Source: Polyangiaceae bacterium
Lineage (GTDB): Bacteria; Myxococcota_A; Polyangia; Polyangiales; Polyangiaceae
Assembly (NCBI GenBank): GCA_023150915.1
Contig: JAKLKA010000024.1
Span: 1 to 64,000 of the forward strand
Length of the DNA stretch: 64,000 nt
Direction of reading: 5' to 3'
Position 1 is the stretch's first letter, and each line of letters opens with the position of its first letter. The notes beneath the pieces were generated by a model that saw only the letters and a list, made by a program, of their open reading frames with translations, was not told the DNA's origin and made no database searches. The translations under genes and the position numbers were made by a program. Positions 4,173 through 14,780 of this stretch are shown here, piece after piece.

Positions 4173-4198
<26 letters not shown>
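3800..4198 (+). CDS. XRE-family HTH antitoxin of cassette 5 with an aberrant C-terminus
   Basis: Residues 1-85 fit a HigA/XRE antitoxin of the kind found after BrnT or RelE toxins: [16 protein letters not shown], a [22 protein letters not shown] helix-turn-helix, then [18 protein letters not shown]. Such proteins normally stop a few residues later. Here the frame runs on for about 47 Arg/Ala-rich residues that look like out-of-frame sequence and finally overlaps the 3' end of mglA on the other strand (4173-4198). No attC follows. The natural end of the cassette was probably deleted near 4055 and the gene now uses a chance stop. Confidence 0.72.
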
Positions 4199-4760
<562 letters not shown>

Positions 4761-4775
4761 CGGCGGGGCCTCTCC

Positions 4776-5258
4776 TCAGTCGTTGAAGAGGTTGTCGATG
4801 TCTTCATCGGTGATTTCTGCGAACGGCGAGTCTGCGCCCGGCGCCGCGACCTTCGAGAGCAACGCCTCGAAGATGCGGTTGAGCTCGTCCGTGGCCTTGC
4901 GCACGCGCAAGCGGACCAGCCCCAAGCTCGACTTGGCGTCGAAGATCACCACGAGAATCACGCGGTTACCCACGAGCTGGATGTGGATGTTCGCCTTTTC
5001 GCCCTCGTGGAACTGAGCGGCAAACTCGTTCTCTCGGAGCAACTTGGCGATGCCGCCCGTAGCGGCGATGTTGCCCGCCGTCAGCGAGGCCAGCGACGTC
5101 GTGTCCAGGTTGTCGACGTCGCCAGCTGCTGCGATGAGCTGCCCATTCTTGTCGACGATGAAGACGACCCTGGCGTTCGCTTCCTTCACCAGGCGGTCTA
5201 CGACCGTTTGGATCTGGTTGAACTCCTCTTCGTACATCACCATCTGCGGGTTAACCAT
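4776..5258 (-). CDS. mglB: MglB, roadblock/LC7 GTPase-activating partner of MglA
   Basis: This 160-aa roadblock/LC7 protein forms a complex with MglA, stimulates GTP hydrolysis and marks the lagging pole. The diagnostic core VMYEEEFNQI, then IDTTSLASLTAG-like DTTSLASLTAG, NEFAAQFHEGE and a C-terminal SPFAEITDEDIDNLF tail all match myxobacterial MglB. ATG 5258 is preceded by GGAGG at 5 nt. It is the promoter-proximal gene of mglBA. The upstream intergenic region to the divergent gene at 5560 must hold promoters for both directions. Confidence 0.95.
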   Translation of the reverse strand: MVNPQMVMYEEEFNQIQTVVDRLVKEANARVVFIVDKNGQLIAAAGDVDNLDTTSLASLTAGNIAATGGIAKLLRENEFAAQFHEGEKANIHIQLVGNRVILVVIFDAKSSLGLVRLRVRKATDELNRIFEALLSKVAAPGADSPFAEITDEDIDNLFND

Positions 5259-5559: not shown

Positions 5560-8500
5560 GTGAAACGCCATGCTCTTGGGGTTTTCTTGCTGGTCGGGTG
5601 CCTTGCCCATGACGGCAAGGCCAACGACGGCCGATTTCATCCCGAGCTTCAGACGGAGCTCGCTCGGCTCGATGCCTCGAAGGGGCCCCAGGCCTACGAG
5701 GCGCTGCGGGCGATCTGGAACACCTGGGACCGCGCCGACCCGACGCAGGTGGAAGAGGCCCTGCTTTCCGCCGAGCAGAACGCGAAGCTCGGACCGCCGG
5801 TTCGCGCGTATGCGGGCATGCTGGCGGCGTACGCGCGCATCCGCCGCGGCGACGTGAACCAAGCGCGATCGAAGATCGACTCGCTGGGCTTCGTTCGACG
5901 CTGGCTGGTGGTGGGCCCGTTCGACAACGAAGACCGCGGTGGGCTCGACGTGGAGCACGGCCCAGAGGCGGACTTCGCGCAGGCGATCGTGCCGGGGCGC
6001 GCTTACTCTGGAAAGGAGCGCCCGGTGCGCTGGCGGGCGGCGCCGGACGCGTTTCCGTTCGGTTACATCGACTTCGGTTCGCTGCTGCGGCCAGAGCGGA
6101 AGATCTGCGCGTTTGCCACGAGCTTCGTGCGCGCAAAGCCCGGCTCGAAGGCGCCGCGTACGATCAGCGCGTGGGTCGGCGCGAGCGGCGGCTTCACGCT
6201 CTATTGGAACGGGCGGCCGGTGCTGAAAGACCCGGCGCATCGCGGTCACGATGCAGATCGCTTCGCGACCCAGCTGAGCTTGAGCCCTGGCTACAACGGG
6301 CTGACCGTGAAGGTGTGCAGCGACGATGCGCCGCCGGCCGTCTCGGTGCGTCTGGGGGACGCCAGCGGTGCGCCCGACTTGGCGCTGGAAACCACCAATG
6401 ACCTGGGCGCCAGCGCCGAGGCGGCCAAGCGGGCACCGGCTGCGCCCGACAAGAAGGCCGCGCTGCCGGCTGCGCGGGGTCCACTGGGGCCGGTGCAGGC
6501 CTTCCAGGGCGTGGTGACTGGCAAGACCGCACGGGCCGCCGATCTGGAGGCCTGGGCGCGCTACCTGCAGGCGACCAGCGGCGACGACAAGAACAAGCAC
6601 GAAGCGCGCGACGCGGCGCGACGCGCCGCCGAGCTCGAGCCCAGCGTGGGGCGACTGCTCTTGGCCGGCGAGCTCGCCGAGGACCGCAACCAGCGACGCG
6701 AGTGGATCGACAAGGCCGAAGCGCTGACCAAGAAGCGCGGCAAAGAGAGCGTGGACGTTCTTCTGGCCCAGGCCGAGCTGGCGCGCACCGGACTGAGCTG
6801 GCAGACCGCGACACGCCATTTCGATCGCATCTTGGCCATCGACCCCGACCAGGTCGATGCCATCGCCGGGCGCGTGGCCACGTACAACACCGCCGGCCTC
6901 AAGCGCACCGCGCTGGCAACGCTGGAGGGGGCGCTGCAGCGCAACCCGAACGCGCTGGGCTTGCTCAACATGTATGCCTCGCAGCTGCGTTCGCTCGGGC
7001 GAACCACCGAGGCGGGCGAGGCCGAGGCGCGATACGCCGCGCTGCGCTTCGACGACCCGGCGCTGCTCAACGCGCAGATCGATCTGGCGCTGACGCGCAA
7101 CGACCGCGCAGCGACCACCCGCTGGGTGGACCGGCTGCTCGAGATCGACCCCGACAGTCAGTGGTCCCACGGGGTGGCGGCGCGGGCGTACCGCGCGCTG
7201 GGGCAGCCCGAGCGTGCTGTTGCGAGCTATCAACGCGCGCTGGCGCTGGCGCCGGAAGACGTGGGAACGCTGCGCGCGCTGGCGGACCTGCAGGGCGATC
7301 TGGGGCGGCGCGACGAGCAGCTGAAGCTGCTGCAGGCGATCTTGAAGATTCGCCCGCAAGACAAGGACGTGCGCGAATATGTGGAGCACATCGAGCCGCA
7401 GAAGCCACGACCGGACGAGGCGTGGGCCTACAAGAGCGAGAAGTTCCTGAAGCTGCGGCATGCGCCGGCCGCGGGGCAGAACCGGCGCACGCTACGCGAC
7501 CTGACGGTGACCACGGTCTACGAGAACGGGCTCAGCAGCAAGTTCCGGCAGGTGGTGTTCCAGCCGCTGAACGACGCGGGGGCCGCGCTGGCTCGGCAGT
7601 ACGCCTTCCAGTACGAGTCGGATCGCGAGGTGGTTCAGCTGCGGGGCGCGCGCGTGTACCGCGGTGACGGGCGCACCGACGAGGCGGTGGAGTTCGGCGA
7701 GGGCGCTGCGGACGATCCGTCGATCAGCATGTACACCTCGGCGCGGAACTTCTACGTGCAGTTTCCACGACTCGACCCCGGTGACGTGGTCGAGCTTCGC
7801 TACCGCGTGGACGAGGTGACCCCGCGCAACGAGTACGCCGACTATTTCGGCGAGGTGGTGTACCTGCAGTCGAGCGAGCCGATGCAGAACGCCGAATACG
7901 TGCTGATCACGCCGAAGAAGCGCACGCTTCACATCGACGAGAAGGTGCCGGGGCTGAAGCGCGAGACCACCGAGCGCGGGGATCAGCGCATCTATCGCTT
8001 CTTCGCCGACAAGGTGCCGCCGCTGGTGCCCGAGAGCGCGATGGCGCCCTGGTCCGAGGTGCTGGGGTTCGTCCACGTGTCGACCTACAAGGACTGGAAG
8101 GACCTGGGTCGCTGGTACTGGGGCTTCGTCAAGGAACAGTTCGACCTGGACGCCGAGACCAAGAAGCTGGCGCGCGAGGTGGCGAAGGACGCGAAGACCG
8201 ACCAGGAGAAGGTCAAGGCCGTCTACAACTGGGTGGTCAAGAACACGCGCTACGTGGCGCTGGAGTTCGGCATCTATGGCTACAAGCCGCGGCGCTGCGT
8301 GCAGACGGTGACCCGCGGCTGGGGCGACTGCAAGGACAAGGCGACGGTGATCGTCACCCTGCTGGAAGAGCTGGGCGTGCCAGCCACGATCGTGATCCTG
8401 CGGACGCAGATGCGTGGCGACTTCCGCTCGAGCGTTGCGAGCCTCTCGCCCTTCGATCACGCCATTGCCTACGTGCCGTCGCTGGACCTCTATCTGGACG

Positions 8501-9255
8501 GCACGGCGGAATACACCGGTTCGGCCGAGCTCCCGGACATGGATGCGGGGGCGCTGGCGCTCTTGGTGAACAAGGGCGACGCCAAGCTGGTGCGCCTGCC
8601 CGAGCGCGATCCGAAGAAGAACGTCCTTGCCCGCACGGTGGTGGCCCAGGTGGCCGCGACCGGCGACGCCAAGCTGGAGCTCGACTATGAAGCGCGGGGC
8701 TCGGAAGCGGCAGATTGGCGCCGGCGCTATCATGCCGAGCAGACCCGGCGCACGCGGGTGAATGCCGATCTGGGCCACGAGTTCCCGGGATTCGAGATCG
8801 CCGCCGGGGCGACCGGCATCGTGGCCGGCGATCTGCAAAACCTGGAGGTGTCGCCGAAGTTGAAGGTGCGGGGCACCGCCCGGGGCTTTGCGCGGAAAGA
8901 GGGGGACGCGCTGAGCATGGCCGTCACGCCCAGCGTGCGGCTCACCGCGAACTTCGCCGCGCTCTCGCAGCGCAAGCAAGACGTGCGGATCGCGTCGTTC
9001 TCGAGCATCGACGACACCTTCGTGGTGAAGCTGCCGCCGGGGGCGAAGCTCAAATCGGCGCCCCAGCCGGCCGAGGGCAGCTCGCCGTTCGGATCGTACC
9101 GAGTGGAGCTGGCCGTGGCCGGCGGACAGGTCACGGTGAAGAGCCGTGTCGAGGTCAGCGCCACGCGCGTCACGCCGGCGCAATACCCCGCGTTCAAGAA
9201 GTTCTGCGAAGAGGTGGACCGCGCCATCGGAGCGCGACTGGTGGTGGAGCAGTGA
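5560..9255 (+). CDS. Large TPR / DUF3857 / transglutaminase-like lipoprotein
   Basis: This is a 1231-aa protein. Starting at GTG 5560 it has a short signal peptide with a lipobox (LLVGC), so it should be an envelope lipoprotein; a GTG-less upstream extension from 5524 would hide this. The first ~600 residues contain a beta-rich segment and TPR-like repeats (RALGQPERAVASYQRAL and similar). The second half has the DUF3857 beta domain and a transglutaminase-like domain with an intact triad: WGDCKDKA (Cys ~924), FDHAIAYV (His ~967), LYLDGT (Asp ~980). Natural substrate unknown. It overlaps the next, paralogous gene by 4 bp (GTGA). Confidence 0.85.
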   Translation: MKRHALGVFLLVGCLAHDGKANDGRFHPELQTELARLDASKGPQAYEALRAIWNTWDRADPTQVEEALLSAEQNAKLGPPVRAYAGMLAAYARIRRGDVNQARSKIDSLGFVRRWLVVGPFDNEDRGGLDVEHGPEADFAQAIVPGRAYSGKERPVRWRAAPDAFPFGYIDFGSLLRPERKICAFATSFVRAKPGSKAPRTISAWVGASGGFTLYWNGRPVLKDPAHRGHDADRFATQLSLSPGYNGLTVKVCSDDAPPAVSVRLGDASGAPDLALETTNDLGASAEAAKRAPAAPDKKAALPAARGPLGPVQAFQGVVTGKTARAADLEAWARYLQATSGDDKNKHEARDAARRAAELEPSVGRLLLAGELAEDRNQRREWIDKAEALTKKRGKESVDVLLAQAELARTGLSWQTATRHFDRILAIDPDQVDAIAGRVATYNTAGLKRTALATLEGALQRNPNALGLLNMYASQLRSLGRTTEAGEAEARYAALRFDDPALLNAQIDLALTRNDRAATTRWVDRLLEIDPDSQWSHGVAARAYRALGQPERAVASYQRALALAPEDVGTLRALADLQGDLGRRDEQLKLLQAILKIRPQDKDVREYVEHIEPQKPRPDEAWAYKSEKFLKLRHAPAAGQNRRTLRDLTVTTVYENGLSSKFRQVVFQPLNDAGAALARQYAFQYESDREVVQLRGARVYRGDGRTDEAVEFGEGAADDPSISMYTSARNFYVQFPRLDPGDVVELRYRVDEVTPRNEYADYFGEVVYLQSSEPMQNAEYVLITPKKRTLHIDEKVPGLKRETTERGDQRIYRFFADKVPPLVPESAMAPWSEVLGFVHVSTYKDWKDLGRWYWGFVKEQFDLDAETKKLAREVAKDAKTDQEKVKAVYNWVVKNTRYVALEFGIYGYKPRRCVQTVTRGWGDCKDKATVIVTLLEELGVPATIVILRTQMRGDFRSSVASLSPFDHAIAYVPSLDLYLDGTAEYTGSAELPDMDAGALALLVNKGDAKLVRLPERDPKKNVLARTVVAQVAATGDAKLELDYEARGSEAADWRRRYHAEQTRRTRVNADLGHEFPGFEIAAGATGIVAGDLQNLEVSPKLKVRGTARGFARKEGDALSMAVTPSVRLTANFAALSQRKQDVRIASFSSIDDTFVVKLPPGAKLKSAPQPAEGSSPFGSYRVELAVAGGQVTVKSRVEVSATRVTPAQYPAFKKFCEEVDRAIGARLVVEQ

Positions 9256-12200
9256 AGCGTTTCATCTTCTTGATCCTGTTGGCGCTCACGGCGGCCTGCG
9301 CCGGCGGCCGCAGCGCCGAGCACGCGCAGACGCCGCTGGCCGAGCTGCGACGGGTCGGGCCCGCCACCACCAGCGCCGAGCTTGCCGGCGAGTGGCTCTT
9401 GGCAGAGCTGATCTCGCCGGGCGGCGACGCCCGCACCGCAGTGAAGGCCCGGGCGCGGCTCGACGAGATCGGCGGGGGCGGAATGCTGGCGCACCTGTCG
9501 CGCGGACTGGACGACGCCATTCACGGCCGCATGCAGAGTGCGCCGGACCACTATCTGAACGCGACCCGCGCCGCGCGTGCTTCGAACGATCCGCGCGCGC
9601 CCATGGTGGCGTGGTTTGCGGCGAACCGCGCGGTGGCGCTGAGGAGCCACGGCAAAGATCTGTGGCCCCGCTGGCAGGCGTTCGTGTCCGACGCGATGAA
9701 GGAGCCGCTGGCCATGGGCTGGCGTGCGCGAGCCGAGCTGGTCGAGTGGTGGGCAGACGAGGCGTATGCCGGTGCCACCCGGAACGTGGAGCAGCAGTCG
9801 GCGCGCGAGTATGGCTGCGTGGGCAACCTGCGCCTGGCTGGGCCCTTTGGCCGCGGCGTGGCGCCCGATTCTTACCGCCGCTTCGACGCCGAGCGCCCCG
9901 GTCCGTGGCCCGAACGCTGGGAGCCGTCGCGGGGGGCCCCGGTGGCGCCGCGCGTCTTGAGGTCCAAGCAAGAGGGCTGCTTCTTGCGCGTGGACGAGCC
10001 GGTGAGCGCCGGCGTCTTCTATGTCGAGACGTTCATCGAGCTGGAGGCCCCGGCGGAGGTGATCGTGGCCGCGCAGGGTGCACTGGCGTTGTTCGTGGAC
10101 GACGCGAAGCTGCTCGATCGTGACCCGCGCATCTGGGGCGTCTGGCCGCGCTTCGGCGTGCACACGTGGCTGGAGGCAGGTCGCCACCGGGTGGTGGCGC
10201 GCCTGGCCGATCCGCAGACCAGCGTGCGCGTGCTGACTGCGGACGGTCGCCCGGCAAAGGTCACGACCTCGAGCGACGCGGCCGCACCCTACAGCGTGGT
10301 GCCGCCGAAGACGGTGTCGGACCCGAACCTGGTGAGCCGGCAGGTGAAGAACGGCGACGTGGTGGACCCAGGGGACGACCTGTCGCGGTTCTTGCTGGCG
10401 TATCTGGCCTATGCCGAGGGGCAGGGGGACGTGGCCGCGGTCTTGACCGAGCCACTGCTCAAAGAGAGCGCGAGCGCCACCGGTCTGGTGCTGGGGGCGT
10501 CGGCCACCTTCGCCGACAAGGACCCGCTGTTCGACCAGACCAGCGTGCGCGATCTGTCGCGCGAGCTGCACGAGCGCGCGCTCAAGAAAGATCCGAAGCT
10601 CTGGCAGTCGGAGCTGAGCTTGGCGCTGTGGCAGGGCGAGCGCGCGGGCCCGACCGAGGCCGTGCGCCGCCTGCGCAAGCTGACCGACGACTACCCCCAG
10701 GTGTCGGGGCTCGCGTTCGCTCTCGCCCGGTTGTACGGCGAGCTGGGCTGGAGCGCGGAATATGCCCAGACCGCCAAGAAGCTGGCCGAGCGCTTCCCCG
10801 ACGACATCGAGGCGCTGTCGACCGCGCTCTCGGTCTACGAGTCCCAGGGCGAGCGGGCGAAAGCCGAGGAGCTGGCGAAGCGCATCAAGCGCCTGGCTCC
10901 GGACAGCGAGGTCGATCTGACGCGCGCGCTTGCCCGCGAAGACTTCGCGGCGGCGACGCGCGAGCTTCGCCGGATTGGCGCGCGTCACCCCGAGCGCAAA
11001 GACGTGGCGGAGCGCCTGCACGACGTGCTGGTGCGTGCCGGCAACACCGCCGAGACGTGGAAGAAGCTCGAGGCCGCCATCAACAAGAGCCCGCACGACG
11101 GTGGAGCGCGGCTGGCGCTGGCCGACGCGCGTTTCGGCGCCGGAGAGCGCGATGCCCTGCGCAAAGCGCTGGTCGACGCCCTGGCGAACGGCGCCGGCAC
11201 GGTGGCACTGGAAGAGGCCATCGACCTGGTCGAGGGCACGACCGAGCTCGAGCACTATCGTCTGGACGCCCGCAAGGTCATCCGGGACTACGAGGCGAGC
11301 GGCGTGACCTTGCAAGGCACCGCAGCGCGCGTGCTCGACTATGCCGCGATCTGGGTCCACGACGACGGCTCGAGCCGCATGCTGGAGCACGAGGTGGTGC
11401 GCATTCAGAGCCCCGAGGCCATCGGCAAGCTGGCAGAGCACCCGAAGCTGGAGGGCGTGGTGCTGCACGCGCGCGTGATCAAGAAAGACGGCCGCGTGCT
11501 CGAGCCCGAGGAAGTGCCCGGCAAGCCGACCATCACCTTTCCGCACCTGGAGGTGGGCGACTACATCGAGACCGAACACGTGATGACCAAGGCCGGAGAC
11601 GGCCGGGGCAAGCAATACGTGAGCCCGCACTGGTTCTTCCGTGAAGAGAACATCGCCTACTCGCGCAGCGAGTTCGTGGTGATCGTGCCGGACGGCAAGC
11701 AGCTCGAGATCGAGACCCTGGGCAACGTTCCCCCGCCGACGGTGGAGAAGAAGGACGGCACCGTGAGCCGTCGCTGGCGCGTGGACAAGAGCCCGGCGGC
11801 CGAGGTGGAGCCGGGCAGCCCGCCCATCACCGAGTTCTTGCCGAGCGTGCGCCTGGGCTGGGGCATCGAGCTCACCGAGCGCGTGGCAGCGCTGGGCGAC
11901 TCGCTGAGCGACGTGGCGCCGATCGATCCGCGGGTGCGGCGCATCGCGCGCAAAATCGTCGATCCGGTGGGGGCCGGCGAGACACGTGAGCGCGCGCGCC
12001 GGCTCTACCGCTGGGTGCTCTCGAACGTGGAAGAGGGGCAAGAGGCCGACGGTCGGCGCGTGGTGGTGAGCAAACGCGGCAATCGCTGGCGCGCGTTCAT
12101 GACGCTGTGCCGCTCGCTGGGGATCCAGACCGAGTACGCCGTGGCCAAGAACCGGCTGTCGCCGGAGTCGGTGGGCAAGATCACCAGCGCCACTCAGTTC

Positions 12201-13004
12201 GTGGAGCCCCTGGTGCGCCTCAAGACCAAGCAGGGGGACCTGTGGCTCACGGTGAGCAGCAAGTTCGCGCCCTTCGCCTACGTTCCCGCCGAGGTCCGCG
12301 GCGTGCCCGCCTATGTGCTTGCCGAGAGCGGCCCCAGGCTGGTCATGACACCGGCCGGCGGCACCGAAGACGCCGTGACCTACGAGGGCTCGGTGGAGCT
12401 GGCGCCGGACGGGTCGGCCAAGCTGGATCTGACCCAGCGCTTCACCGGAAAGTACGCGATGGCCGTGCGCAGCGCGTTCATGCAACTTCCGGAGAGCCAG
12501 CTGCGCGATCTGGTGGAGTCGAAGCTCTTGGGCCGCGCGCTGCGCGGGGCGCGCTTGATCAAGCACGAGATCGCCCACCTGGACGACCTGGATCAGCCGT
12601 TGCTCTTGAAGATGCGCGCCGAGATGGCGGGCTTTGCCCAGCAGACCAGCGGTGAGCTGGCGATCTCGCCGCCGTTTTCGCCGCGGGTGGCGCAGCTGGC
12701 GGCGCTGCCGGTCAGGCAAACGCCGCTGATGATCGGCGAGGCCACGCACCAAGAAGTGCGGCTGCGGGTGCAGTTGCCCAAGGGCGCGGCGCTCCGCGAC
12801 GTGCTGGCAGGAAGCACCATCAAAGACGGTGACCGGTCGGTGAAGATCGCCGATCGCCTGGAGGGCGACGCGATCGTGCTCGATCGCGTGCTCGACATCC
12901 CCGCCGGCCGCGTCAAGCCGGAGGCCTACCCCGCCTTCTTGGACTTTGCTCGTCGCGCCGACGCGGCGCTGGGCCGCGATGTGCGCCTGCGCGTGGGGCG
13001 CTGA
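9252..13004 (+). CDS. DUF3857-type lipoprotein paralogue with a degenerate transglutaminase domain
   Basis: This is a 1250-aa protein starting at GTG 9252, with signal FIFLILLALTAAC giving a lipobox Cys. TPR-like repeats fill residues ~370-600, then DUF3857 (VVLHARVIKKDGRVLEP; ITFPHLEVGDYIE). The transglutaminase-like region is recognisable (RRLYRWVLSNVEEG, then RAFMTLCRSLG), but the catalytic Cys position holds Asn (RGNRWRAF, ~944) and no His or Asp partner is visible. It is thus probably a non-catalytic partner of the upstream paralogue, with which it is translationally coupled. Long ORFs in other frames here are shadows. Confidence 0.82.
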   Translation: MKRFIFLILLALTAACAGGRSAEHAQTPLAELRRVGPATTSAELAGEWLLAELISPGGDARTAVKARARLDEIGGGGMLAHLSRGLDDAIHGRMQSAPDHYLNATRAARASNDPRAPMVAWFAANRAVALRSHGKDLWPRWQAFVSDAMKEPLAMGWRARAELVEWWADEAYAGATRNVEQQSAREYGCVGNLRLAGPFGRGVAPDSYRRFDAERPGPWPERWEPSRGAPVAPRVLRSKQEGCFLRVDEPVSAGVFYVETFIELEAPAEVIVAAQGALALFVDDAKLLDRDPRIWGVWPRFGVHTWLEAGRHRVVARLADPQTSVRVLTADGRPAKVTTSSDAAAPYSVVPPKTVSDPNLVSRQVKNGDVVDPGDDLSRFLLAYLAYAEGQGDVAAVLTEPLLKESASATGLVLGASATFADKDPLFDQTSVRDLSRELHERALKKDPKLWQSELSLALWQGERAGPTEAVRRLRKLTDDYPQVSGLAFALARLYGELGWSAEYAQTAKKLAERFPDDIEALSTALSVYESQGERAKAEELAKRIKRLAPDSEVDLTRALAREDFAAATRELRRIGARHPERKDVAERLHDVLVRAGNTAETWKKLEAAINKSPHDGGARLALADARFGAGERDALRKALVDALANGAGTVALEEAIDLVEGTTELEHYRLDARKVIRDYEASGVTLQGTAARVLDYAAIWVHDDGSSRMLEHEVVRIQSPEAIGKLAEHPKLEGVVLHARVIKKDGRVLEPEEVPGKPTITFPHLEVGDYIETEHVMTKAGDGRGKQYVSPHWFFREENIAYSRSEFVVIVPDGKQLEIETLGNVPPPTVEKKDGTVSRRWRVDKSPAAEVEPGSPPITEFLPSVRLGWGIELTERVAALGDSLSDVAPIDPRVRRIARKIVDPVGAGETRERARRLYRWVLSNVEEGQEADGRRVVVSKRGNRWRAFMTLCRSLGIQTEYAVAKNRLSPESVGKITSATQFVEPLVRLKTKQGDLWLTVSSKFAPFAYVPAEVRGVPAYVLAESGPRLVMTPAGGTEDAVTYEGSVELAPDGSAKLDLTQRFTGKYAMAVRSAFMQLPESQLRDLVESKLLGRALRGARLIKHEIAHLDDLDQPLLLKMRAEMAGFAQQTSGELAISPPFSPRVAQLAALPVRQTPLMIGEATHQEVRLRVQLPKGAALRDVLAGSTIKDGDRSVKIADRLEGDAIVLDRVLDIPAGRVKPEAYPAFLDFARRADAALGRDVRLRVGR

Positions 13005-13007
13005 GCC

Positions 13008-13613
13008 TCACTTGTCGGGCTTGGTGGACTCGGCGTCCTTCTTGGCCTTGGCATCGGCCTCTTTCAGTCGAGCTTCGATGCGCTTCTTCACCGCGGCATA
13101 GTCCGAGACCAGCTTGGTCCAGCTGGCGATCTTGCCTTTGCGGTCCTCGGCGGACTTGGGGAACGCCTTGGCCGCGGGCTGCTGCTGCGCGAACTGCGCG
13201 TACGCGTTCCAACGATCGGTGGCGTCGTCGAACGACTTCTGCCGCTCGCGCAGATCGGCGAGCACGAACAAGATCTTGGCCTTGAGCGGGTGGTCGGTGC
13301 CGACGAACCGAAGCGCGGCGACCCACGAGGTCTCTGCCTCTTGCGTGTCGTTCTTGGCGAGGTGCGCTTCGCCGATGCGATAGTGACCCAGGGCGTTCTG
13401 CGGCTCTTTGGTGATCGCCTCTTTGTAGGCCGCGATTGCGCCGTCGAAGTCGCGGGCCACGTACAGGTCGTCGCCCTTCTTGATCTGCTCCCAGAACGGG
13501 CTGATCCCCTTGACCCCCTGCGGATCTTTGCGCGGACCCGCGTCGTCCTTCGCGGCCGCGGGCAGCGCGAGCACGAGCGACACGAGCGGCAGCACCCAGA
13601 ACCTGCTCTTCAT
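13008..13613 (-). CDS. Secreted TPR-repeat protein
   Basis: This 201-aa protein has a clear signal peptide (MKSRFWVLPLVSLVLALPAAAKDD). TPR units follow: GDDLYVARDFDGAIAAYKEAITKEPQNALGHYRIGEAHL and a second repeat. It ends in a Lys/Ala/Glu-rich helix. ATG 13613 is chosen because the signal peptide begins there; the longer in-frame extension has no such feature. It converges with the DUF3857 lipoprotein gene, with 3 bp between the stops. It is likely periplasmic and a protein-binding scaffold; no specific partner can be named. Confidence 0.8.
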   Translation of the reverse strand: MKSRFWVLPLVSLVLALPAAAKDDAGPRKDPQGVKGISPFWEQIKKGDDLYVARDFDGAIAAYKEAITKEPQNALGHYRIGEAHLAKNDTQEAETSWVAALRFVGTDHPLKAKILFVLADLRERQKSFDDATDRWNAYAQFAQQQPAAKAFPKSAEDRKGKIASWTKLVSDYAAVKKRIEARLKEADAKAKKDAESTKPDK

Positions 13614-13715
13614 GCCCGAGACGCTATCATGGGCCCGAGCGACGGCGCGACAAGACCCGGGCAAACCCCGGGAAATGGGCGCGTTTTCTGGGCCAGACGT
13701 GGTAACACGACAGAC

Positions 13716-14780
13716 ATGCGCGTCTCCGCGTATCCGTGGGCTTCGCTCGAGCGACTCCCCCGCGCCGCCCACCGCGAGCTCGGGCGCGCGCGGCGCGCGT
13801 TATCGCGGTCGGTGCGCGTCAGCGGGCTCGCGAAGGCCGCCGGCGAGCTCTTGTCGGTCGAGACGGCGCTGGTACCCGGCGACGTGACCCTCGAGGTGAT
13901 GCCGGTGGACGCTGATGCCATCGCTTTCGAGGCAGCCGATGGCTCGCGCTTGGCCTTGGCGCTGGAGCCGGCGCTGATCTCTGCCGTGCTGGGGCGCGTG
14001 CTGGGGCGTCCGGCGGGGCTCTCGGCACCCGGCACGCGACTGGATGCCACCGCAGCAGGGGCCATGGCGGCAGTGGCGGTGGAGATCGCCCGCCGAAGCG
14101 GGGCTCAGCAGGCGCTGGCGACGACGGCACGAAGCCTGGCCGGCGAGACCTGCGTGCAGATCACGGCGACGGTGCTGTACGACGGTCGACCGTACGCGGC
14201 GCGCGCGTGGGTGAAGCCGGCGGCGGCGGACGAGCCCGAGGTGAGCCTGGCGGGGCTGGGCGAGGTGCCGATCGCGCTCGGCGTGGTGGTGGCCCGGAGC
14301 CTGGCCAGCCCCGACGAGATCGCCGCGCTGGTTCCGGGTGACGCCTGGCTGCCGGGCGCAGGTTGGTGGATCGACCACACGGGCGCGGGCCGCGCCGCGC
14401 TGGCGGCACCGGGGAGCGAACGAGGGGTTTCGCTGGCCTTGGCCTCCGACGGGCAGGCCGTGTTAGGGGACGAAGTGGTCGAGCTTTCGCTCGACGTGGA
14501 CGGTGCGATGAGCTCGGAGCGAGACGACGTGGGTGGGGTGCTGGCCGACGCGGTGCTCGACGCACCGCTGGTGGTGCGGGTCGAGATCGGGACGGTGTCG
14601 CTCACGGCACGCGAGTGGGCTGCCATGGCCCCGGGGGACGTGATCGAAACCGGCCGGCGAATCAACGAACCGGTGGTGCTGCGGGTCGCCGGGCGAGAGG
14701 TCGCCCGGGGCGAGCTGGTCGAGGTCGAAGGCGAGCTGGGCGTTCGCATCCGCGAGATCGTGAGCGGAGGGGCGCGGTGA
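13716..14780 (+). CDS. SctQ/YscQ-like type III secretion C-ring protein (SpoA domain)
   Basis: This is a 354-aa protein. The C-terminal ~80 residues form a SpoA/FliN domain: VVRVEIGTVSLTAREWAAMAPGD, then VVLRVAGREVARGELVEVEGELGVRI. The N-terminal part (AISAVLGRVLG-like LISAVLGRVLGRPAGLS; AGAMAAVAVEIARRSG) fits SctQ, the sorting-platform protein of injectisomes, better than FliN or FliM. ATG 13716 gives an N-terminus without extra residues. No other secretion or flagellar gene lies near, so it is an orphan here. It overlaps the next lipoprotein gene by 4 bp (GTGA). Confidence 0.77.
   Translation: MRVSAYPWASLERLPRAAHRELGRARRALSRSVRVSGLAKAAGELLSVETALVPGDVTLEVMPVDADAIAFEAADGSRLALALEPALISAVLGRVLGRPAGLSAPGTRLDATAAGAMAAVAVEIARRSGAQQALATTARSLAGETCVQITATVLYDGRPYAARAWVKPAAADEPEVSLAGLGEVPIALGVVVARSLASPDEIAALVPGDAWLPGAGWWIDHTGAGRAALAAPGSERGVSLALASDGQAVLGDEVVELSLDVDGAMSSERDDVGGVLADAVLDAPLVVRVEIGTVSLTAREWAAMAPGDVIETGRRINEPVVLRVAGREVARGELVEVEGELGVRIREIVSGGAR

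Follow-up and report, generated by a model that had tools for sequence, protein, structure and literature searches.

A co-conserved pair of DUF3857/transglutaminase-fold proteins in Myxococcota, one live and one catalytically dead, with a possible anchoring role for the dead partner

Two adjacent genes of a Polyangiaceae bacterium (assembly GCA_023150915.1), here called A and B, appear to encode a live enzyme of the transglutaminase fold and its full-length, catalytically dead paralogue. Both lie in the window, the whole stretch of DNA analyzed, which comprises the first 64,000 bases of the 77,348-base contig JAKLKA010000024.1 in a genome of 8.0 Mb. The A/B pair is read here, with a probability of about one-half, as an ancient cell-envelope system made up of an enzyme and a pseudoenzyme that likely form a heteromer, with B anchoring A and positioning the substrate through its DUF3857 domain. 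For the core of this reading, namely that the live enzyme has an obligate dead twin, the co-conservation of the two genes, as judged from sequence comparison, provides good support.

The first-pass annotation of the window described two long proteins of similar plan with a 4-bp gene overlap. Both frames are indeed open, and the start of B and the stop of A share the bases GTGA (Table 1). The G+C content by codon position is 0.70/0.47/0.88 in gene A, and at the third position it reaches 0.88 in A and 0.90 in B, compared to 0.74 in long antisense open reading frames. A and B are the only proteins of this genome with DUF3857 matches above the cut-off. Pairwise comparison (blastp) gives 22% identity over 832 residues with an E value of 2e-19. 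Profile-profile alignment extends the relationship to the C-terminal halves (E 4.5e-70 over 618 profile columns) as well as the N-terminal halves (E 9e-39 over 531 columns, including the GPF-motif region and the tetratricopeptide repeats [TPRs]), and by these alignments A and B are paralogues along their whole length. The closest named relative found is a groundwater metagenome-assembled genome titled "Myxococcales bacterium" (locus L004), with 91% identity in A.

The profile comparison proposed in the first-pass annotation separates the two products. A passes the cut-offs of DUF3857, Transglut_core, and DUF3858, and B stays below that of Transglut_core, with 16.5 against 23 bits. The DUF3857 match of B lies above the cut-off of 24.6 bits but is partial; TPRs are matched by Pfam in B as well. 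DUF3858 is not listed for B at E values up to 1, and the C terminus of B nonetheless aligns to that of A by profile. The TPR region does not make either protein a member of the PEP_TPR_lipo/PrsT family (TIGR02917), as scores of 53.3 and 42.2 bits compared to a cut-off of 312.2 reflect a TPR match only. The β-sandwich-like region at the N terminus of A gave no match in the Pfam search; it presumably resembles a sandwich of the sugar-binding type.

The fate of the active site was followed in 82 loci (80 relatives, L004, and the window), with site counts taken from an alignment of the C-terminal 640 residues in 70 rows of A and 73 of B. A retains the Cys-His-Asp set recognized in the first-pass annotation (Cys924, His967, and Asp980), and every readable relative keeps it, with Cys in 68/68, His in 69/69, and Asp in 69/69 rows. 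Together with the score above the cut-off, this set places A within Transglut_core. B lacks the triad, as had been proposed, and is thus outside Transglut_core by catalytic residues as well as by score. None of the 73 B rows has Cys at the nucleophile column, which is occupied by Ser (28 rows), Asn (24), Asp (8), His (5), or other residues (8). Asp is found at its column in 20 of the 73 rows, and the two columns checked for the His site hold His in 0/73 and 7/73 rows.

The loss of Cys from B therefore stands, but its supposed replacement by Asn, which depends on the alignment, does not. In a refined alignment comprising 105 rows, all 38 A rows read GDCK, compared to a Gly followed by a gap of three residues in all 38 B rows; the B consensus continues after the gap with Asn, Ser, Asp, or His and then Arg. 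The change is for this reason best read as a deletion of Asp-Cys-Lys and not as a Cys-to-Asn replacement. Alignments of few and of many sequences place a deletion of 3 to 5 residues over the Cys site of B, and the Gly ahead of the deleted step is invariant in B. The same three-residue gap occurs in five of the six dead partners from other pairs of the phylum (those of the four pairs labelled a2 and that of locus L155); the exception is the dead partner of L160, which reads GHTLDK. Elsewhere in the aligned C-terminal portion, B has no conserved Cys, leaving no intact triad hidden there, and the single His conserved in this portion is His713 of the DUF3857 domain.

Co-conservation within Myxococcota was examined by searching a sample of 187 genomes with family profiles of A and B. 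The scores split at B copies of at least 344 bits versus at most 260 for the remaining listed matches, and at A copies of at least 419 bits versus at most 338 for other DUF3857 paralogues; a contig-cut A of genome G081 (277 bits) is counted since it adjoins B. A is present in 84 of the 187 genomes (91 copies) and B in 83 (88 copies). Both occur together in 80, A only in 4, and B only in 3, so that 80 of the 87 genomes with either gene have both. Among the genomes with A only, G009 has a divergent B of 92.5 bits adjoining A, and in G104, G142, and G185 A lies near a contig end. The genes form 73 adjacent same-strand pairs in the order A then B, in 70 genomes. Of the copies that are not adjacent (18 of A and 15 of B), many lie at contig ends.

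An exact 4-bp overlap is possible by an in-frame start of B in 53 of the 65 pairs read. The flanking genes are common to close relatives only, and other families have other neighbours. Since this overlap is kept while no other neighbour is kept beyond close relatives, the conserved unit is, by gene order, the two-gene pair and not inherited synteny, and the A/B pair is, on these comparisons, ancient and co-conserved. Three genomes carry two A/B pairs each: G107 (L110 and L111), G182 (L085 and L086), and G163 (L090 and L091). In G182 and G163 it was examined whether duplicated pairs move as units. The first pairs of these two genomes are mutually nearest for A (68.5%) and for B (55.7%). For the second pairs B agrees (44.9% versus 36 to 37%), and A is undecided (58.1% versus 58.3%).

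The first-pass annotation called both products lipoproteins. This applies to B, which has a conserved lipobox pattern and is predicted to be lipidated, and is doubtful for A as a family, in which the lipobox of the window is confined to close relatives. With a simple pattern applied to the most hydrophobic N-terminal stretch of full-length rows, a lipobox is called in 58 of 72 B rows and 8 of 62 A rows (Fisher p 7e-16), and the majority of A rows resemble normal exported proteins. The asymmetry persists, in the rows called, where the genes lie apart: A has no lipobox at L074 and L076, and B has one at L075, L077, L104, and L135, with none called at L129. A second asymmetry concerns conservation. 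Columns conserved at 80% or more number 47 in A and 3 in B for the transglutaminase domain, and 13 in A and 23 in B for the DUF3857 domain. In B, the transglutaminase domain ranks last among the three regions compared for the number of fixed columns. By these counts the strongest conservation of B is no longer in the transglutaminase domain but in the DUF3857 domain.

The proposed mechanism is as follows. A would be exported and act in the periplasm as the catalytic half, possibly as a papain-like hydrolase or acyl-transferase of the transglutaminase fold working on amide bonds, with its TPRs and β-sandwich-like region serving binding. B is a full-length copy that has lost the nucleophile loop (Asp-Cys-Lys), the His, and the Asp but kept the fold, and that bears a predicted lipoprotein signal in most lineages of this phylum. 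The two proteins would be made together through coupled translation and most probably form a heteromer, in which B would anchor A to the membrane, presumably the outer rather than the inner one, and position the substrate through its conserved DUF3857 domain. The anchor is assigned to B because the lipobox is found on B and mostly not on A.

A different division of labour, in which B is a regulator that holds A inactive pending a signal, either by binding its active site or by competing for the substrate, with anchoring as a secondary property, is unlikely. A dead twin of the same fold would be a natural inhibitor or allosteric partner, and overlapping genes would fix the ratio of A to B. However, a protein fitted to a conserved site on its partner would not be expected to retain only 3 columns at 80% or more in its transglutaminase domain, and the lipobox asymmetry is left unexplained. 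Of the two roles that the first-pass annotation suggested for the dead half of a hetero-complex, regulator and scaffold, an anchor or scaffold role of B fits better, because B and not A usually has the lipoprotein signal and because the strongest conservation of B has moved to the DUF3857 domain.

That shifted conservation could also mean that B has acquired a function of its own at the DUF3857 domain, around His713, Asp696, Glu729, and Lys744, such as a new catalytic centre or the binding of a ligand or metal, and that it acts beside A and not as its subunit. His713 is invariant in 73/73 rows, Asp696, Gly706, Glu729, Lys744, Gly747, Gly769, and Asp770 are each conserved at 93% or more, and A lacks that His, its consensus apparently having Gln there when the consensus lines are compared by eye. 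Just one His and no Cys are conserved, however, the residues are not placed in a structure (the model has a predicted local distance difference test [pLDDT] score of about 50 to 60 at this site), and the co-occurrence with A in 80 of 87 genomes favours a joint function, which makes this reading rather improbable. Ordinary paralogy, an old tandem duplication kept as an operon whose products act separately on related targets with no mechanism in the pairing, would agree with the frequency of tandem duplicates and with the single live genes of other subfamilies but is very unlikely in view of 73 adjacent pairs, mostly with the same 4-bp overlap, in many families with changing neighbours, and of the one-sided and complete loss of the site in every B.

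Live/dead pairs of DUF3857 proteins are also found outside the A/B family. Among 20 further loci read for other live DUF3857 paralogues of the phylum, a tandem dead partner adjoins the live gene at L149, L151, L152, and L154 (the GDCDDKA subfamily), L155, and L160; L167 and L168 hold copies of A that lie close to the end of a contig. The L160 locus (genome G179) holds a pair of the Parabacteroides type inside this phylum, with GVCKD in the live and GHTLDK in the dead member, and was possibly transferred. L156, L165, and L166 encode single live DUF3857 proteins of one clade with a lipobox of their own, and their relatives L157 and L159 have none by the pattern. Bacteroidota are represented by plasmid records only. 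In the plasmid collection 21 records gave a match; of the four examined, two (H12 and H19) contain a live/dead tandem and two (H2 and H20) a single live gene. In Parabacteroides distasonis (L147) a live gene (GVCKD, FNHC, and LDPTW) is followed 13 bases on by a dead one, and Persicobacter (L146) likewise has a dead gene after a live one. A search of the same collection with B gave no match.

A tree was built from 74 of the 105 rows, with A and B thinned to 24 rows each and the misaligned rows of L161 to L163 dropped beforehand; topology tests used 52 of its rows. All dead rows lie on one side, with a basal split that lacks support. Within it, d2, d3, and the dead rows of the main pairs form a group with a support of 97, and the live and dead rows of the Parabacteroides type form mirrored groups with L160 (100 and 99). 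The approximately unbiased test does not reject a single clade comprising every dead row (p 0.54); separate duplications of the Parabacteroides-type pairs (p 0.22) or of the a2/d2 pairs (p 0.08) are not rejected either. It may tentatively be suggested that live/dead twins are an ancient envelope system predating the split of Bacteroidota and this phylum, with a single loss of the site and the pair inherited and duplicated as a unit, and that here the dead half became a membrane anchor whose DUF3857 domain gained a new binding site centred on His.

Several observations weigh against an obligate, B-anchored pair. Single live genes with no partner in the stretch read occur in Aureibacter (L145) and Caballeronia (L148) and, within the phylum, at L150, L153, L156 to L159, and L161 to L166. 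Neither of the two Bacteroidota pairs, nor d3 of L155, looks like a lipoprotein, and anchoring is therefore ruled out as the role that all dead twins had originally. A and B are clearly apart, with room to see, in five genomes (G115, G159, G047, G128, and G097); set against the 73 adjacent pairs, these do not make separation the usual state. With another range of start positions the lipobox counts become 52/72 for B and 7/62 for A, and the B of the window is then missed because its open frame extends upstream. The asymmetry is also not clean in the window, where A has LVGC, similar to LLGC in A of L004, with no match in L065 of the same genus; the A of the window could thus be lipidated too.

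Structure prediction supports the retained fold of B. A model of residues 641 to 1250 (window positions 11172 to 13001; pLDDT 62.9), used for the fold only, has its best PDB match in 3kd4_A (Foldseek E 9.4e-22; Z 13.2; root mean square deviation of 7.9 over 443 residues), and B in this model keeps the papain-like/transglutaminase fold of 3kd4. The model of the C-terminal half of A (pLDDT 42) was discarded. The B model is in parts similar to ribophorin I/OST1 and to the N-terminal domain of M1 aminopeptidases, and this likeness was not used, as Z values of 7 to 8.4 are about the commonly seen range. The 3KD4 entry, the sole solved DUF3857/DUF3858 chain found, is titled "putative protease" and corresponds over 505 residues to the protein of the Parabacteroides dead gene (L147), so the best structural match of the B model is itself another dead twin. 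This protein, BDI_1141, comprises DUF3857, a transglutaminase fold, and DUF3858 and shares the fold of the C-terminal half of B. Its gene comes immediately after a live DUF3857/transglutaminase gene, and the protein lacks the triad, with GTP replacing GxC. In contrast to B, it has no TPR match, no N-terminal sandwich-like region, no lipobox, and no loop deletion.

A shares the papain-like Cys-His-Asp set with the superfamily of transglutaminase-like cysteine proteases (LapG, NAT, and vasohibins). In one account of the superfamily, 3KD4 is listed as a member and all members are said to have a conserved triad (PMC4866520); the 3KD4 protein and B differ from that description in having none. The single DUF3857/transglutaminase proteins of Caballeronia, Aureibacter, and same-phylum clades agree with A in the Cys motif and the DUF3857-type profile match, and differ in having no dead twin in the stretch read and, for one clade, in having members with a lipobox of their own. 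Parallels in organization also come from peptidases. Mitochondrial processing peptidase and the M16B pairs are live/dead enzyme pairs, and these enzymes, like PqqF/PqqG, are zinc peptidases with a fold unlike that of A/B. PqqG of M. extorquens is taken here to be the dead half of its pair. To our knowledge, the dead half of none of these peptidase pairs serves as a membrane anchor. The likeness to A/B lies in a live and a dead paralogue that are encoded or work together, and PqqF/PqqG of M. extorquens is called a heterodimer (PMC12997753).

Table 1. Features of the A/B gene pair in the window
Feature	Position	Strand	Description or basis
Gene A	5560..9255	+	1231 aa, GTG start, open frame; TPR, DUF3857, transglutaminase-fold, and DUF3858 regions
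A, lipobox-like LVGC, Cys codon	5599..5601	+	Pattern; not conserved among relatives
A, N-terminal β-sandwich-like region (WxVxGPF motif)	5893..6369	+	Common to A and B, profile-profile alignment
A, TPR region	6751..7395	+	Several Pfam TPR families
A, DUF3857 (PF12969)	7525..8022	+	86.2 bits, cut-off 24.6
A, Transglut_core (PF01841)	8161..8409	+	45 bits, cut-off 23
A, catalytic Cys924 in GDCKDKA	8329..8331	+	Alignment of relatives
A, catalytic His967 in FDHAIAY	8458..8460	+	Alignment of relatives
A, catalytic Asp980 in YLDGT	8497..8499	+	Alignment of relatives
A, DUF3858 (PF12970)	8965..9216	+	31.4 bits, cut-off 27
Gene B	9252..13004	+	1250 aa, GTG start, open frame; full-length catalytically dead paralogue, predicted lipoprotein
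GTGA, 4-bp overlap of B start and A stop	9252..9255	+	Window sequence
B, lipobox Cys (TAAC)	9297..9299	+	Pattern
B, His713	11388..11390	+	Invariant in B rows; inside DUF3857 domain
B, DUF3857 match	11529..11801	+	36.2 bits, profile 81-169 of 170
B, degenerate transglutaminase fold	11964..12155	+	Transglut_core 16.5 bits, below cut-off 23
B, invariant Gly943 and Asn944, edge of deleted Asp-Cys-Lys step	12078..12083	+	Alignments

Divergently upstream of A, positions 4173 to 5258 of the window (minus strand) encode a small GTPase with an Arf/Ras match and a Roadblock/LC7 protein, which we take to be an mglA/mglB-like pair. This arrangement is kept in 9 close-relative loci only, and a role in motility was on that ground rejected as a general clue. 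Convergent with B, a small TPR protein with a signal-like start inside its frame is encoded at positions 13008 to 13772 (minus strand) and is common to 6 close loci.

The first-pass annotation regarded such pairs as functionally undescribed, which fits the searches of the open-access literature: DUF3857 is mentioned only in passing, no functional account of the A/B pair or of DUF3857 with a transglutaminase was found there, and no paper on the function of 3KD4 was found. In Xanthomonas campestris, a DUF3857 gene is located immediately upstream of lolA, which encodes the lipoprotein carrier, and both genes point the same way (PMC6341742). Live/dead enzyme pairs as such are already known; what we take as new is a pair of this kind that has the transglutaminase fold and whose dead half is probably anchored.

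Proteins of the DUF3857/transglutaminase type are known from several phyla, and the open-access papers searched describe no function for them. As the natural unit is often a pair, assaying the live half alone may miss the activity, and the 3KD4 chain, being a dead twin in spite of its title "putative protease," cannot show an active site. If the proposed role of B is true, a pseudoenzyme would here have the uncommon task of tethering its live paralogue through a lipid.

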